A DNA stretch of 64,000 nt from Planctomycetaceae bacterium (GTDB lineage: Bacteria; Planctomycetota; Phycisphaerae; UBA1845; UTPLA1), in contig WYBU01000059.1 in the NCBI GenBank assembly GCA_011525745.1, positions 1 to 64,000 on the forward strand. The letters run 5' to 3'. Of the stretch, positions 436 to 16,361 are shown piece by piece; the stretch's first letter is position 1, and each line of letters starts with the position of its first letter. The notes below the pieces were generated by a model. The model did not search any database. It was given only the letters and a program-made list of their open reading frames with translations, and was not told the origin of the DNA. Made by a program: the position numbers and the translations under genes.

Positions 436-3057
436 ATGTCCGCTCGTTCGGTGACGCAGTACTGGCAGGCCGCGGCCGGCGCGACGCTGGCCGTCGTCGT
501 CGTCTTGCTGCTGGGCAACAGTCTCTTCCTCTATACCGTCGATGCGCCCGACGCAATCCTGGCCTTCATGATCGAGGCCCACGTCTGGCTCGGCTACGCC
601 TTGTGCGCGGCGATCGCGCTGTTCGCCGGACCGCACTACCTGCTTCACCGCAGGCACGCCAACCTCCGCGCCCGGCGACTGGGCTACACGCTCATCACCT
701 TGATCGTCGTCGGCTGCATTGCCGGCGTGCGCCTGCACGTCGTCGGCCACTCGTTGGCGGTCGCGTGGCTGGCACGGCTTCACGAGATCGCTTTCGTCCT
801 GGCACTGCTCGCCTACATGTTTCACCGCCTCGTCGCGCGCGCCACGCCCGTGCTGCACCTGGAGTTCGCCGGCGCGGCCGCCGCGATCGTCGTTTTTCTG
901 GTCGTCTGGAACGTGCATCGGCCCGAACCGCTGCGCAGCCGTCTCGCGGCGCCCGATCCGCGACCCGCCCCCGCTGCGCTGGTTGCCGACTTCGGCGCAT
1001 CGCGCGCCGCGACGACTACGGGCCACTGGCTGCGCGAGGACGATCTGAGCAATCCCGGCTATTGCGCGCAGTGCCACGTTGAAATCGCCGAACAGTGGGA
1101 CGGCTCGGCCCATCACTTTTCGTCGCTGAACGATCCGTTCTATGAGAAGACCTTCGAGTCGCTCCAGCGCGCCCGGCCGCCGGCCGCCGCCAAGTTCTGC
1201 GGCGGCTGCCACGATCCGCTCGTCTTCCTGACCGGACATATGGAGCAGACGGTGACCGGTCGGACGATCAACGCGCAGGAAGGCATCACCTGCCTGGCGT
1301 GCCACGCCATCACCGAGGTGCGCGATCGCGTCGGCAATGGCGGCTACGTACTGGCCGCGCCCGATCACTATCCGTTTTACGACAGCAAAGATCCCGAAGA
1401 GCAGGAGATGAACCGCCGGCTGATCCGCTCGAAGCCGGAGAAGCACAAGGCCGCGTTCCTCAAGCCGTTCCACCGCACGTCGGAGTTCTGCCTGGCGTGT
1501 CACAAGGCCAACCTCGACGTTGTCGTCAATCACTATCGCTGGAAGCGCGGTCAGAACGATTACGACCCCTGGCACGACAGCGCCGCCGGCATGAAGTCGG
1601 CCCTGACTTTCTACAACGCCGAAAAGCAGAAGCTGTGCCAGGACTGCCACATGCCCGACGTGCCCACGCAGGATCCGGCGGCGCGCGACGGCCTGAGCCG
1701 CGATCACAGCTTCGCCAGCGCCAACACGGCGCTGGCGATGATCAAGGACAAGAACGACTGGCTGCGCAAGGCGCAGGAGCTGCTCAAGGACTGCGTCAGC
1801 ACCGACATCTTCTCCGCCGTCGTCGATCCCGGCGGCCCCGACGCCCGGCGCATCTGGCCGCTGGAACATCCCGACGCGCGCGTGCCCGCCGGCACGCTGC
1901 TGCGCGTCGAGGTGCTGGCCCGCAATCGCAACGTCGGCCACCTCTTCCCCGGCGGGACCATCGACCTCAACGAAGCCTGGATGGAGTTCACCGTCGCGCG
2001 CGAAAACCACCCGCCGATGCTGGCCAGCGGGCTGCTCGACCGCTACGGCCGGCTCGATCCGTCGGCGCACCGTTTCAACGTGGTGATGCTCACGCGCGAA
2101 GGGCGCTTCGTTGACATTCACAACGTCGAGGACTTCTACACCATCCTCTACAACAACGCCCTGCCGCTGGGGCCGGCCGACGTCATCCGCTATGAATTCG
2201 TCGTGCCCGAACTGTCAGAGGGCGCGCGGCTGCGGCTGACGGCCCGCCTCAACTACCGCAAGTTCAGCCGGCAGTACACCGAGTTCGCCCTCGGACCGGA
2301 CGCCCCTCCCATGCCGGTCACGCTCGTCTCCGAAGACACGGTGGACCTGGTGATCGGACGCAACACGGTCGTCCCGTCGCCGGCGGCCGGCACCGATCTG
2401 GCCGTGCGCGTCAACGACTTCGGCATCGCCCACCTGCGGCAGGGCGATACGCGCACGGCGCGCTGGGCTTTCCGGCTGGTCGCCGAGATGAATCCGGCCG
2501 ACGCCGACGCCTGGGTCAATCTCGCCCGCTGTTCCGTGGTCGACGGGGCGTACGACGTCGAGATGGAAAAAAATCTGAGACAGGCCGACGCCGTTCGGCC
2601 GGGCTATCACAAGACCGCCTATTTCCTGGGCCGACTGCGCGCGGCGCAGGGGCTGTTCGATGAGGCGGTGAAGGCGTATGACGTGACGCTGTCGAAGTTT
2701 CCGGAGGATCGCGAGGCGCTGAATCAGAAGGGCACGGCGCTATTCAAGCAGGAGAAATTCCGCGAGGCCGTCGGCGTGTTCGAGCAAGTGCTGCGGATCG
2801 ATCCCGAGAACGTGACGGCGCACTCGTATCTGTTTCGCGCGCACGCGGCGCTGGGCGAATCGGAACTGGCCGCCAAATACGAAGCCCAGTACCTGCGCTT
2901 CCAGCCGCAGGAGGCCGAAAAAGCCGTGACAGAAATCTACCGCCGCAACAATCCCGACGCCGATCGCGAGGCCAATGCGCAGCACGTCCACCCGCTCTCG
3001 CCGCCCGGCGAGGCCGGTCGGGACCGCGCGCTGGTGTGGCTGGAAGCCATGCCCTGA
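436..3057 (+). CDS. Membrane-anchored pentahaem cytochrome c with C-terminal TPR domain
   Basis: An 873-residue protein in three parts. Residues 1-160 form about five hydrophobic segments containing several histidines (for example H49, H67, H105, H116, H130), the arrangement of a b-type haem membrane module, though I cannot assign a family. Residues 200-420 carry five CxxCH haem c sites (C210, C255, C286, C352, C401), resembling cytochrome c554/NapC-like multihaem proteins. Residues from about 655 to 835 are TPR repeats. ATG follows GGAGG at 4-5 nt. An electron-transfer role at the membrane with the haem domain outside the cytoplasm is inferred; the donor and acceptor are unknown. It stands alone, flanked on both sides by family A repeats. 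Confidence 0.85.
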   Translation: MSARSVTQYWQAAAGATLAVVVVLLLGNSLFLYTVDAPDAILAFMIEAHVWLGYALCAAIALFAGPHYLLHRRHANLRARRLGYTLITLIVVGCIAGVRLHVVGHSLAVAWLARLHEIAFVLALLAYMFHRLVARATPVLHLEFAGAAAAIVVFLVVWNVHRPEPLRSRLAAPDPRPAPAALVADFGASRAATTTGHWLREDDLSNPGYCAQCHVEIAEQWDGSAHHFSSLNDPFYEKTFESLQRARPPAAAKFCGGCHDPLVFLTGHMEQTVTGRTINAQEGITCLACHAITEVRDRVGNGGYVLAAPDHYPFYDSKDPEEQEMNRRLIRSKPEKHKAAFLKPFHRTSEFCLACHKANLDVVVNHYRWKRGQNDYDPWHDSAAGMKSALTFYNAEKQKLCQDCHMPDVPTQDPAARDGLSRDHSFASANTALAMIKDKNDWLRKAQELLKDCVSTDIFSAVVDPGGPDARRIWPLEHPDARVPAGTLLRVEVLARNRNVGHLFPGGTIDLNEAWMEFTVARENHPPMLASGLLDRYGRLDPSAHRFNVVMLTREGRFVDIHNVEDFYTILYNNALPLGPADVIRYEFVVPELSEGARLRLTARLNYRKFSRQYTEFALGPDAPPMPVTLVSEDTVDLVIGRNTVVPSPAAGTDLAVRVNDFGIAHLRQGDTRTARWAFRLVAEMNPADADAWVNLARCSVVDGAYDVEMEKNLRQADAVRPGYHKTAYFLGRLRAAQGLFDEAVKAYDVTLSKFPEDREALNQKGTALFKQEKFREAVGVFEQVLRIDPENVTAHSYLFRAHAALGESELAAKYEAQYLRFQPQEAEKAVTEIYRRNNPDADREANAQHVHPLSPPGEAGRDRALVWLEAMP

Positions 3058-3190
3058 GTAGGGTGGGTTGTACTCAACCCACCGTTTCTCGTTGTGCGCG
3101 GGAGTTACGCGACGGGAGTGGTGGGTCGAGTACGACCCACCCTACGTGGCTTCGTAGGGTGGGTTGTACTCAACCCACCATTTCTCGTTG
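3058..3190. repeat. Palindromic repeat (family A), downstream copies
   Basis: Immediately after the cytochrome stop codon are two GGTGGGTTG/CAACCCACC hairpins with loop TACT, separated by a GGTGGGTCG/CGACCCACC hairpin with loop AGTA. This matches the unit at 1-166. It lies between convergent genes (cytochrome on plus, mreB on minus), so it could act as a transcription terminator. There is no clear T-tract. Confidence 0.8.
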
Positions 3191-12634: not shown

Positions 12635-13168
12635 TTGCCAATTCGTCGATCCGCGGCGAACCTCGCTCGGGTGAGCGGGTGCGCGCAGAATGCCCGCCCG
12701 TTTTTGTCACACCGCGTCATCCGCATCGCGGAAAATTCCGTACTCACTGTGAGATTTTCCACGCGCGTGTCAGCGTTGCGCTTGTATTGCGGCGCCGGCG
12801 ACGTGTGTGAAAACCCCGTTACCGGGCAATCAAGCCATTGGGTACGTGTCGATTTCCTCGAAGACCGCTCGCCGCTCCCTCATCGTCGCGGTTCGCTTGA
12901 GTCATTTCATGCATGTTCCGTCGCTCTACACGCGACGCGAGGCGCATGGCACGGAAGTTGCCCGCCCGTAGCTGCGAATTCTCGGGCGCGGACACGCGGT
13001 GCACATGCGCATCAGGGCCGACTTGTAAACGATCGCCCATAGTGGTATGGGATTTCGCGCGGGGCACGCGGCCGGGCGGCGACGATCGGCGACCGGTTGC
13101 CTGGCGGCACGGCATCCGTCGGCGAACACGCGCCCGAAGGCCGGACCCGCTGACAGCGAGGCTGTCGA
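12635..13168. other. 534-nt gap without a supported gene
   Basis: Upstream region of the cbb3 oxidase operon. I see no convincing coding sequence or confident promoter. TTGATTGCCAATTCGTCGA at the left end only weakly resembles an FNR-type site. Short open frames here are arginine-rich and look like chance frames of GC-rich DNA. Confidence 0.5.
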
Positions 13169-13792
13169 ATGGATCACGACGCTCAATGGCTCGAGTTGCA
13201 GCGCCTCAAGGCGCAGGTCGCGGCGATGGAAGCCGAACTGGCCGCCTCGGCGCCCGGCGGCGAGTGGCCGCCGCGATCCTACTACACCACGTATCACATT
13301 CTGGGCGGCATGGTGCTGGGCCTCGTCGGCGCGGCGGCGAGCCTGCTGTTCAACATCATCGGCGCGGCGATGGTCGGCCGCCATCCGCTGGAGCTGATCC
13401 GCGTCTATCTGACGTTTCCGCTCGGCGAGAAGGCGATGGAAGTGCAGAGCGGCTTCGTGCTGGCCGCGGGCTGCTGCCTGTACCTCGGCACGGGCATGAT
13501 CGGCGGCATTCCGTTCCATCTGATTCTCAGCCGCTTCTTCGGCGAAGCGTCGATGCTGCGGCGCTTCATCGTGACGACGATCCTGGCGATCGGCGTGTGG
13601 CTGATCAATTTCTACGGCGTGCTGTCGTGGCTGCAACCGCTGCTGATCGGCGGCAACTGGATCGTCGAGCAGGTTCCCATTTACGTGGCGATCGCCACGC
13701 ACCTGGTGTTCGGCTGGACGTTGTTGCTGGTCGATCAGTGGGGGCGGTTCGAGCCTTATCGGCCATACGGAGCGCAGGAGCAGAGAGCGTGA
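13169..13792 (+). CDS. Polytopic membrane protein, first gene of cbb3 oxidase operon
   Basis: 207 residues with a short N-terminal coiled region (1-28) and about four membrane segments (about 48-72, 90-115, 130-155, 172-192). Not recognised by name. Histidines occur in or near the membrane segments (YHILGGMVLG, PFHLILSRFF, THLVFGWTLL). Its stop codon overlaps the GTG start of the next gene by 4 nt (GTGA), tying it translationally to the dihaem lipoprotein and so to the oxidase. A structural or assembly role in the oxidase is inferred from position only. Confidence 0.7.
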   Translation: MDHDAQWLELQRLKAQVAAMEAELAASAPGGEWPPRSYYTTYHILGGMVLGLVGAAASLLFNIIGAAMVGRHPLELIRVYLTFPLGEKAMEVQSGFVLAAGCCLYLGTGMIGGIPFHLILSRFFGEASMLRRFIVTTILAIGVWLINFYGVLSWLQPLLIGGNWIVEQVPIYVAIATHLVFGWTLLLVDQWGRFEPYRPYGAQEQRA

Positions 13793-14859
13793 GCGTGCGA
13801 GTGGGAGAATTCGATCGCGCCGGGTCTGCGGTTCGCTCGCGCGTCGCCGTGCTCATCGCGGCGATGCTGCTTCTCCCGGGCTGCGACGCCTCGGAAGAGC
13901 GCGACGTCGACACGTCGAAGCCGCACGGTGCGCAGTTCGGCTTTCAGACCGACATTGCCACCTCGCTCGTCGAGGAAGGCCGCATCGCCTATCAACAATA
14001 CTGCGTCGGCTGTCACGGCGCGGCGGGCGACGGCAACGGCGAGGCGGCGATTTTCCTTGATCCCAAGCCGCGCAATTTCGTGCTGGCCAATTTCAAATTC
14101 AGTTCGACGCGCTCCGGGCAACTGCCCACGGATGCGGACCTGAAACGCACGCTGCGCACCGGCCTGCGCGGCAGCGCCATGCCGCCGTTCAATTTGTTGT
14201 CCGAGCGCACACTGGACGGACTGGTCGCCTACCTCAAGACCTTTTCGCCCAAGTGGACACAGCGACGGCCGGCCGCCGCCATCCCGATCGTCGAAGACCC
14301 CTTCCGCGACGCGGCGGACAAGAGCGATGCGATACGCCGCGGCGAGGCGGTTTACCACGGATTCGTCACCTGCTGGTCGTGTCATCCTTCGTACGTCGAA
14401 GAGTCGAAGATCAACGTCTACCTCGAGCAGTTCGGCAGTGCGCGGCGCGCAGGCTTCCGGCCCGATCTGCACCTGGCCGTCGCCAAGCCCAACAGCGAAG
14501 GGCAGTTGATTTATCCGCCCGATTTTCTGCGCGATTACGTGCGGGCCGGCGCGAGCGTCGACGATTTGTATCGCTCGATCGCCGCCGGCATCACCGGTAC
14601 CGCCATGCCGACCTGGATCGACTCTATCGATGTTCCAGCCGAAAGTGCGGACGAGCCGCCGATCGTGTCGCGGTCGGACCTGTGGGCCGTCGCGTATTAT
14701 GTGCGCGATCTGATTGCCAAACGGCCGCCGCTGCTGGCGGAAGGCAAGTTCGACGTGCGCGAGCGCCCGACACCGATCTATCTGTACGGCGCGCCGCCGC
14801 CCGCGACCGCGCCGGCCGAGGAGGCGGAAGAAGCGCCGGAGATCGAGCTGGATGAGTGA
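13789..14859 (+). CDS. Dihaem cytochrome c lipoprotein (CcoP-like role)
   Basis: 356 residues from a GTG at 13789, which overlaps the previous stop by 4 nt and follows AGGAG at 9 nt. The N-terminus is a lipoprotein signal with lipobox LLPGC. Two class I cytochrome c domains follow, with CVGCH at C72 and CWSCH at C195; candidate axial methionines lie in SAMPPF and TAMPTW. Known cbb3 oxidases carry a dihaem CcoP with a membrane helix. Here the dihaem unit appears to be lipid-anchored and encoded before CcoN. The C-terminus is a Pro/Ala/Glu tail. An electron-delivery role to the oxidase is inferred from operon position. Confidence 0.8.
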   Translation: MSVRVGEFDRAGSAVRSRVAVLIAAMLLLPGCDASEERDVDTSKPHGAQFGFQTDIATSLVEEGRIAYQQYCVGCHGAAGDGNGEAAIFLDPKPRNFVLANFKFSSTRSGQLPTDADLKRTLRTGLRGSAMPPFNLLSERTLDGLVAYLKTFSPKWTQRRPAAAIPIVEDPFRDAADKSDAIRRGEAVYHGFVTCWSCHPSYVEESKINVYLEQFGSARRAGFRPDLHLAVAKPNSEGQLIYPPDFLRDYVRAGASVDDLYRSIAAGITGTAMPTWIDSIDVPAESADEPPIVSRSDLWAVAYYVRDLIAKRPPLLAEGKFDVRERPTPIYLYGAPPPATAPAEEAEEAPEIELDE

Positions 14860-14882
14860 ACGACGTTGTGGCTGATCTCGCG

Positions 14883-14905
14883 CCGCGACGCCTGAGCCGT
14901 CGCGG
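14883..14905. repeat. Hairpin between dihaem cytochrome and ccoN
   Basis: Perfect 8-bp stem CCGCGACG/CGTCGCGG with a 7-nt loop in the 65-nt spacer. It has no T-tract, so an mRNA processing or stabilising element is more likely than a terminator. It overlaps the region 20-40 nt upstream of the ccoN start. Confidence 0.45.
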
Positions 14906-14924
14906 TGAACTTTGCAGGTAAACA

Positions 14925-16361
14925 ATGACGCAAGCCAGCGCCGCCGCTGTTCCGAAGGAACCGCCCGCCACGTCGGACCTTGTCGACGTGCGGCTCGTCC
15001 TGTGGCATTTCACGGCCGGGATGGTGTTCCTCGCCGTCGCCATCCTGGCCGGCTTCTTGTTCTCGCTGCAATTCATCCAGCGCTATCCCGTCGCCGGCAT
15101 CGAGTTGTTCTCTCCCGGACGCTGGCGCATGGTTCATACGAATGGCGTGGCGTACGGGTTTCTCGCCAACGTGTTTCTCGGTGCGCTGTACTGGGCCGTT
15201 CCGCGCCTCACGCTGCGGCCGGTCTACAGCCGCAGGCTCTCATGGTTCATATTCTTCGCCTGGCAGGCGGTGGTGCTGGCGACCGCGGTCGGCCTGGTGC
15301 TGGGTCATGCACAGGCGCTGGAATGGGGAGAAACGCCGGTCTATGTCGACCCGGTCGCACTGCTGGGCCTGATGCTCGTGGCCGTCAATTTCCTTGCGCC
15401 GATTTTCCAGACCAGCGGACCGATGTACGTCTCGCTGTGGTACTTCATCGCCGCGTTTATCTGGACTGTTCTTGTTTATGCGATGGGCAACTTTTTACCG
15501 CAGTATTTCGTCGGCGGCGCGGCGGCCGGCGCGATCGGCGGACTGTTCATCCACGACCTCGTCGGCCTGTTTGTGACGCCGCTGGGCTGGGGGCTGATGT
15601 ACTATTTCGTGCCGATCATCCTCAAGAAGCCGATGTGGAGCCACGGGCTGTCGCTCGTCGGATTCTGGGGGCTGGCGTTCTTTTATCCGCTGACGGGCAT
15701 TCACCACTTTCTCTACAGCCCGATTCCGCTCTTCTTGCAGCACGGAGCGGTGATTACGACCATCGCCATCGAATTCGTCGTCACGACGGTCATCATCAAC
15801 TTCTTCGGCACGCTGGCCGGCCGCGGTGACACGCTGCGCACGAACTTGCCGATCCGTTGGTTCTACACCGGCATGGTGTTCTATTTCGTCACTTGCCTGC
15901 AATGTTCGTTTCAAACGACGCTGACGTTCCAGAAGATCATCCATTTCACCGACTGGGTGGTCGGCCACGCGCACCTGGTGATGCTCGGCGTCTTCGGATT
16001 CTGGCTGCTCGGCATCATCCTGTACCTGTGGCCGCGGCTCGTCGGCTCGAACGCCTGGTATTCCGACGTGCTGAACAGTTGGCACTACTGGCTGACGATG
16101 CTGGGCACGCTGATTATGTTCCTCGATCTGCTGGTGGCCGGGCTGATTCAGGGCTATCTGTGGCGCGATCTGTCGCCGTGGGAAGACTCGCTGCGGGCGT
16201 CGATGCCGTTCTGGCTGGTGCGGACGTTTAGCGGCGTGATGATCACGGTCGGTCAGTTCATGTTTTTCTGGAATTGCTATAAGTCTTGGCGCCTGGGCGC
16301 GCCGGCCGGCGCCCCGCGCCGCGAGCCGAGCCGCGGCTCGATGGCGCCGGCGACGGCGTGA
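14925..16361 (+). CDS. ccoN: cbb3-type cytochrome c oxidase subunit I
   Basis: Catalytic subunit of the high-affinity terminal oxidase, in the inner membrane. 478 residues with about twelve hydrophobic segments. All expected ligands are visible: H71 and H350 (in VVGHAHLV) for the low-spin haem, H348 for the high-spin haem, and H210, H260 and H261 (TGIHHFL) for CuB. The cross-linked tyrosine equivalent is Y254, six residues before H260, as in cbb3 enzymes. It is followed after 110 nt by ccoO. Low-oxygen respiration is the known role of this family. Confidence 0.95.
   Translation: MTQASAAAVPKEPPATSDLVDVRLVLWHFTAGMVFLAVAILAGFLFSLQFIQRYPVAGIELFSPGRWRMVHTNGVAYGFLANVFLGALYWAVPRLTLRPVYSRRLSWFIFFAWQAVVLATAVGLVLGHAQALEWGETPVYVDPVALLGLMLVAVNFLAPIFQTSGPMYVSLWYFIAAFIWTVLVYAMGNFLPQYFVGGAAAGAIGGLFIHDLVGLFVTPLGWGLMYYFVPIILKKPMWSHGLSLVGFWGLAFFYPLTGIHHFLYSPIPLFLQHGAVITTIAIEFVVTTVIINFFGTLAGRGDTLRTNLPIRWFYTGMVFYFVTCLQCSFQTTLTFQKIIHFTDWVVGHAHLVMLGVFGFWLLGIILYLWPRLVGSNAWYSDVLNSWHYWLTMLGTLIMFLDLLVAGLIQGYLWRDLSPWEDSLRASMPFWLVRTFSGVMITVGQFMFFWNCYKSWRLGAPAGAPRREPSRGSMAPATA

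Follow-up and report, generated by a model that had tools for sequence, protein, structure and literature searches.

Single-chain links between the quinone pool and multihaem cytochromes c are represented by CbcL, in which one polypeptide comprises a di-haem b domain in the membrane and a multihaem c domain in the periplasm (PMC9129911, PMC6295460). Among pentahaem cytochromes, c552 and ExtKL were grouped with the pentahaem cytochromes (PHC) of cable bacteria bearing an immunoglobulin-like domain; some of the cable-bacteria members are fusions with a truncated haemoglobin (PMC11976967). The ext cluster of Geobacter encodes its cytochrome b, ExtP, in a gene of its own (PMC5877670). Here we analyzed a gene of Planctomycetaceae bacterium (assembly GCA_011525745.1) located close to the start of contig WYBU01000059.1. 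Positions 1 to 64,000 of this contig, the whole stretch of DNA that was analyzed, are herein referred to as the window, and the product of the gene as the window protein. This protein combines N-terminal membrane helices, five haem c sites, a beta domain, and tetratricopeptide repeats (TPRs) in one chain (Table 1).

Proposed mechanism and comparison with CbcL

The best explanation for the window protein is a one-chain inner-membrane quinol:multihaem-c oxidoreductase with a di-haem b and a pentahaem c part, to which we assign a probability of about 0.62. Domain layout, conservation, relatives, and gene pairing were observed directly; haem b binding and pairing, topology, the quinone reaction, its direction, and contact with a partner are the parts of this explanation that we infer. 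The N-terminus would be cytoplasmic, and helices 2 and 4 of the five-helix bundle would hold two b haems, one between H49 and H116 near the periplasmic face and one between H67 and H130 near the cytoplasmic face. Downstream of helix 5, the chain would exit into the periplasm as a c552/ExtKL-type pentahaem c domain, with at least one haem ligand supplied by the beta domain. Electrons would be exchanged between the quinone pool, the b haems, and the c haems and would reach an envelope partner, which in many relatives is probably linked to a co-encoded FG-GAP/UnbV_ASPIC (CRTAC1-like) protein. The TPR tail would be an optional protein-binding appendix.

CbcL, MtrH, and MtoC, the quinone oxidoreductases of Geobacter and other bacteria, also have a b-type membrane domain and a multihaem c domain in one chain, the b haems of the window protein being predicted. 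The CbcL chain, with nine haems, starts with the c haems and ends with six helices. In contrast, the window protein begins with five helices, followed by five haems of a different family, the beta domain, and the TPRs; thus, the CbcL/MtrH/MtoC order, with an N-terminal c and a C-terminal b part, is reversed. The membrane domain of the CbcL type is HydC/FdnI-like (PF01292) and usually has six helices, whereas the window protein has five and does not match PF01292. CbcL provides the precedent for the proposed function; since domain order, haem number, and haem family differ, membership in CbcL is not claimed. A separate CbcL-like gene, with a C-terminal PF01292 domain scoring over the cut-off, was found in the same genome (locus L186, C72:1-12000). 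This fusion is the first gene of a multihaem cluster whose genes have 11, 11, 13, 13, and 5 CXXCH motifs.

The pentahaem c and beta domains

The membrane helices, haem c sites, and TPRs listed in the initial annotation were all recovered. The five N-terminal helices are confident in the AlphaFold2 model (40-row alignment, mean predicted local distance difference test score 82.6). The five CXXCH motifs are located at residues 210, 255, 286, 352, and 401; in 20,000 shuffles of its sequence, such motifs number 0.008 on average and two at most. The TPRs were found with Pfam TPR_16 (3.6e-16, best stretch 765-826), and about five hairpins are present at residues 653-838 of the full AlphaFold2 model. 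In addition, strands in this model outline a beta domain (residues ~454-640) between the haems and the TPRs, which the initial annotation did not include.

Conservation was counted in 97 aligned homologue rows, and the tree contains 94 rows. All five haem c sites, as well as H226, H337, H424, and H502, show no or almost no variation. A profile of 37 sequences covering the haem and beta region matched the pentahaem cytochrome c552 of Thermochromatium tepidum (5ze8) with an E-value of 1.9e-12, the best stretch being sites 1-3; the next matches were MccSep and then cytochrome c554. The ExtKL model NF040886 was matched at E 0.01 or better by 33 of the 37 members, the full window protein scoring 14.2 bits against a curated cut-off of 250 bits. 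For the Cytochrome_C554 domain (PF13435), the score is 30.4 bits and the gathering cut-off 20.8. Having five sites in homologous sequence, the c part is probably of the pentahaem cytochrome (c552/ExtKL/PHC) kind. Like c552 (5ze8), ExtKL, MccSep, and the cable-bacteria PHC, it has a pentahaem core; the predicted beta domain downstream, which aligns weakly to 5ze8 and 9wt8, may correspond to their immunoglobulin-like or beta domain. The c552, ExtKL, MccSep, and PHC proteins as described have neither TPRs nor a di-haem b membrane module of the type predicted here. The whole window protein also matches domains II/IV of MtrC/MtrF (PF22113; 31.0 against a cut-off of 30) over haems 1-3, but it lacks the decahaem layout and is not a lipoprotein; this match probably reflects general multihaem similarity. 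A cytochrome c assembly protein is encoded in the same genome.

The relatives of the c part bear on the main rival explanation, a quinol-fed periplasmic reductase in which the di-haem b would deliver electrons to one open c haem reducing nitrite, hydroxylamine, selenite, or a sulfur compound. Relatives of the core are c554, c552, and ExtKL/MccSep and, more distantly, nitrite reductase subunits. ExtKL was proposed to act in selenite reduction (PMC5877670), whereas no function has been clearly assigned to the matched c552 (PMC11976967). Because only four free His are invariant in all 97 rows, one haem could lack a distal His; however, H545 is nearly invariant in the long (TPR-bearing) forms and would permit five bis-His haems. 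Moreover, no CXXCK or other catalytic-haem signature was found, and we consider a reductase of this type unlikely. Reversed electron flow, with the same protein reducing quinone by electrons from outside or from periplasmic donors, seems less probable again. Flow from quinol to the periplasm would be the natural reading of the window protein.

Conserved histidines and the haem b question

Residues 1-165 of the window protein contain ten His, of which only H49, H67, H116, and H130 are conserved; each of the other six is present in no more than 6 of the 97 homologues. With a median conservation of just 30% per N-terminal column, this amounts to strong selection on these four positions. None of the four varies among the window protein and the 16 homologues found in its own and related genomes. 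H49 and H116 are retained in 94-95 of the 97 homologues, spanning 12 phyla. Of the 97 rows, 53 have both H67 and H130, 29 have neither, and 15 are mixed; in the 94-row tree, all mixed rows belong to Poribacteria. H49 and H116 without H67 and H130 were found in loci L052, L059, and L072 and in most Acidobacteriota loci (L080-L123). For these clades, one b haem instead of two is predicted.

According to the AlphaFold2 helices and the conservation among homologues, helices 2 and 4 have two conserved His each, which would pair in three dimensions. The 14-residue spacings of H116/H130 and G83/G97, together with two parallel helices bearing His pairs, correspond to the pattern of cytochromes b. The family mean of Lys plus Arg is 2.9 per proposed cytoplasmic loop versus 0.6 and 1.5 in the periplasmic loops. 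Such a charge distribution is consistent with an N-terminus in the cytoplasm and a C-terminal part in the periplasm; H49 and H116 would then lie toward the periplasmic face, and H67 and H130 toward the cytoplasmic one.

Comparison with known b-type cytochromes yielded sub-threshold similarities. For the N-terminal model, the highest Foldseek query TM-scores among the 50 matches listed were to a bc1 supercomplex chain (0.43), NOX5 (0.43/0.45), STEAP2 (0.41), and cytochrome b561 (0.40); with the whole model, the matches listed were only TPR proteins. Some family members touch DUF4405 (PF14358) at 6.5e-4 and 1.9e-4 and PF01292 at 5.4e-4, below the cut-off, the best members reaching 20.6-24.7 bits against gathering cut-offs of 26.7 (DUF4405) and 30.1 (PF01292). 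A profile comparison with DUF4405 gave a marginal similarity (32.8 versus 24.5 and 24.9 for reversed controls), in which helices 3-4 align with the TG/His-His hairpin and H116/H130 with the DUF4405 His pair. Both DUF4405 and the prokaryotic cytochrome b561 family (PF01292) share with the window family a helix with two His 14 residues apart, preceded by a TG-containing helix; they differ in that every tested member is below the cut-off and the window protein has no match at all.

Several observations weigh against a di-haem b quinol oxidoreductase. The window N-terminus alone gave nothing significant in Pfam, NCBIfam, and PDB sequence searches, and its Foldseek matches to solved structures had no significant E-value. 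PF01292 was rejected as the parent family, its profile comparison giving 25.4 versus 27.3 for the reversed control. The spacing between H49 and H67 is 18 residues rather than 14. Poribacteria often retain H67 or H130 alone, and an independent-pair test of H67/H130 co-loss was underpowered. Because the tree shows just 4 and 3 changes for these two positions, their co-occurrence is suggestive and not proof. Finally, no quinone site was identified, and for the window copy no partner gene or remnant was found in the available sequence, the contig starting 435 bases upstream.

The initial annotation had proposed that the N-terminal His are placed as in di-haem b membrane proteins. Absence of these His from homologues was to count against the idea; as far as homologues go, the idea holds, with H49 and H116 nearly universal and H67 and H130 kept in most. 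A significant b-cytochrome family match for the window N-terminus was not obtained. At the sequence level, haem b binding by this module appears well supported, and we infer a di-haem b-type module without making it a member of the known b families. That the bundle is a mere membrane anchor or metal-binding module whose conserved His hold no haem b is very improbable: the missing family match and the loss of H67 and H130 in a large clade speak for it, but H49 and H116 survive amid variable columns and are placed, as in bis-His haem sites, close to the termini of two parallel helices that have conserved glycines, and the weak similarities (Foldseek, DUF4405, PF01292) all point toward b-type cytochromes.

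Table 1. Features of the window protein gene. Positions are those of the window; fractions refer to the 97 homologue rows.
Feature	Position	Strand	Basis
Whole gene, 873 aa: di-haem b-type membrane module (predicted), pentahaem c, beta domain, TPR	436..3057	+	Open reading frame (ORF) call, ATG start
Transmembrane (TM) helix 1, residues 3-34	442..537	+	AlphaFold2 model; hydropathy
TM helix 2, residues 39-70, with H49 and H67	550..645	+	AlphaFold2 model; conservation
H49, proposed ligand of periplasmic-side haem b	580..582	+	Kept in 94/97
H67, proposed ligand of cytoplasmic-side haem b	634..636	+	57/97; usually co-present with H130
TM helix 3, residues 77-103, with G83 (72/97) and G97 (94/97), 14 residues apart	664..744	+	AlphaFold2 model; conservation
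TM helix 4, residues 107-133, bearing H116 and H130 at a 14-residue spacing	754..834	+	AlphaFold2 model
H116, proposed ligand of periplasmic-side haem b	781..783	+	Kept in 95/97
H130, proposed ligand of cytoplasmic-side haem b	823..825	+	Kept in 64/97
TM helix 5, residues 140-160, leading into the periplasmic part	853..915	+	AlphaFold2 model
Haem c site 1, CAQCH	1063..1077	+	Both Cys and His in 96-97/97; CX4CH spacing in more than 1/3 of homologues
H226, candidate distal haem ligand	1111..1113	+	97/97
Haem c site 2, CGGCH	1198..1212	+	97/97
Haem c site 3, CLACH	1291..1305	+	97/97
H337, candidate distal haem ligand	1444..1446	+	97/97
Haem c site 4, CLACH	1489..1503	+	97/97
Haem c site 5, CQDCH then M	1636..1650	+	96-97/97
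H424, candidate distal haem ligand	1705..1707	+	97/97
Beta domain, residues ~454-640, resembling the C-terminal part of c552/MccSep	1795..2355	+	AlphaFold2 strands; weak alignment to 5ze8, 9wt8
H502 in GHxFP(G/T)G motif, candidate distal haem ligand supplied by the beta domain	1939..1941	+	97/97
H545, possible fifth distal ligand	2068..2070	+	84/97; replaced in TPR-less relatives
TPR array, about five repeats and cap helix, residues 653-838	2392..2949	+	Pfam; AlphaFold2

Family distribution and the co-encoded CRTAC1-like protein

The architecture, which the initial annotation did not recognize, is not unique: homologues were found in at least 12 phyla (tree, NCBI names), the distant ones comprising 80 loci from a scan of genome contigs. 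The family is apparently unnamed. Its distribution is patchy, with a strong match in 9 of 150 genomes of the window organism's class. The window protein is a paralogue, 66% identical, of an operon copy on contig C13 of its own genome. These two proteins, one from Enhygromyxa (Myxococcota), and one from an unclassified metagenome-assembled genome form a supported clade, pointing to transfer between phyla. Cultivated species with a homologue include Neorhodopirellula pilleata, Rhodopirellula europaea, and Enhygromyxa salina. Palindromic repeats (GTAGGGTGGGTTGTACTCAACCCACC and a GTCG variant) flank the gene at 12-154 and 3058-3179 and occur nowhere else in the window. Such repeats have 125 matches genome-wide (0 for the reversed control), frequently arranged in tandem and close to the ends of contigs, and are also found immediately downstream of the C13 paralogue.

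Homologues are often coupled to a gene for a ~600-residue FG-GAP/UnbV_ASPIC (CRTAC1-like) protein, many with overlapping stop and start codons. This gene is located within 1 kb on the same strand in 39 of the 80 distant loci and adjoins the homologues of related genomes as well as the C13 paralogue; just two UnbV_ASPIC genes were found in the window's genome. It lies upstream in the window's clade and downstream in most other clades. Shorter, TPR-less relatives (L036-L041), in which the first haem site is CX4CH, have an adjacent CRTAC1-like gene in five of six cases. Docking of a partner by the TPR part, as suggested initially, is weakened by these relatives, which keep the partner gene; TPRs are thus probably not needed to dock the CRTAC1-like protein. 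Genes for FG-GAP/UnbV_ASPIC proteins are also found beside hydrazine-synthase homologues in some bacteria (PMC12758564), but the neighboring cytochromes there are of other kinds. Every domain of the window protein is of a known kind; the fusion and the conserved cytochrome/UnbV (CRTAC1-like) pairing were not found described in the open-access literature, a scope outside which most subscription papers fall.

Other genes of related kinds were observed nearby or in the same genome. At C82:48291-51503 (L042), an FG-GAP/UnbV_ASPIC gene runs into a thioredoxin-like stretch (WCAPC) and has an in-frame TGA in ...DDL(stop)SFFWRR, for which mutation, assembly error, and recoding are candidates. An 820-residue ORF on contig C117 (L188:5877-8336) combines a c554 domain at its N-terminus with a beta-propeller and two more CXXCH motifs, resembling the beta-gamma hydrazine-synthase homologues of PMC12758564. 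In the window, positions 12913-16361 contain a cytochrome c-containing ORF followed by an ORF for haem-copper oxidase subunit I (PF00115). Elsewhere, genes for a four-haem and an eleven-haem cytochrome (L032:13948-16322) lie a few kb from a homologue of the window protein.

More broadly, and tentatively, these proteins may constitute an unnamed respiratory module of at least 12 phyla, in which a one-chain di-haem b/pentahaem c quinone oxidoreductase and a co-encoded extracytoplasmic beta-propeller (CRTAC1-like) protein would carry electrons along the envelope or across it. A large clade would have lost the haem on the cytoplasmic side and retained only the periplasmic-side one. If true, this would be a new single-chain link between the quinone pool and multihaem cytochromes in many uncultivated bacteria of soils, marine settings, and groundwater, in which searches for such links are usually limited to homologues of CymA, CbcL, or ImcH. 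A first testable role would also follow for the bacterial CRTAC1-like (FG-GAP/UnbV) proteins, recurrent beside multihaem cytochromes, and what the second haem does becomes amenable to testing through natural variants predicted to have either one or two b haems.
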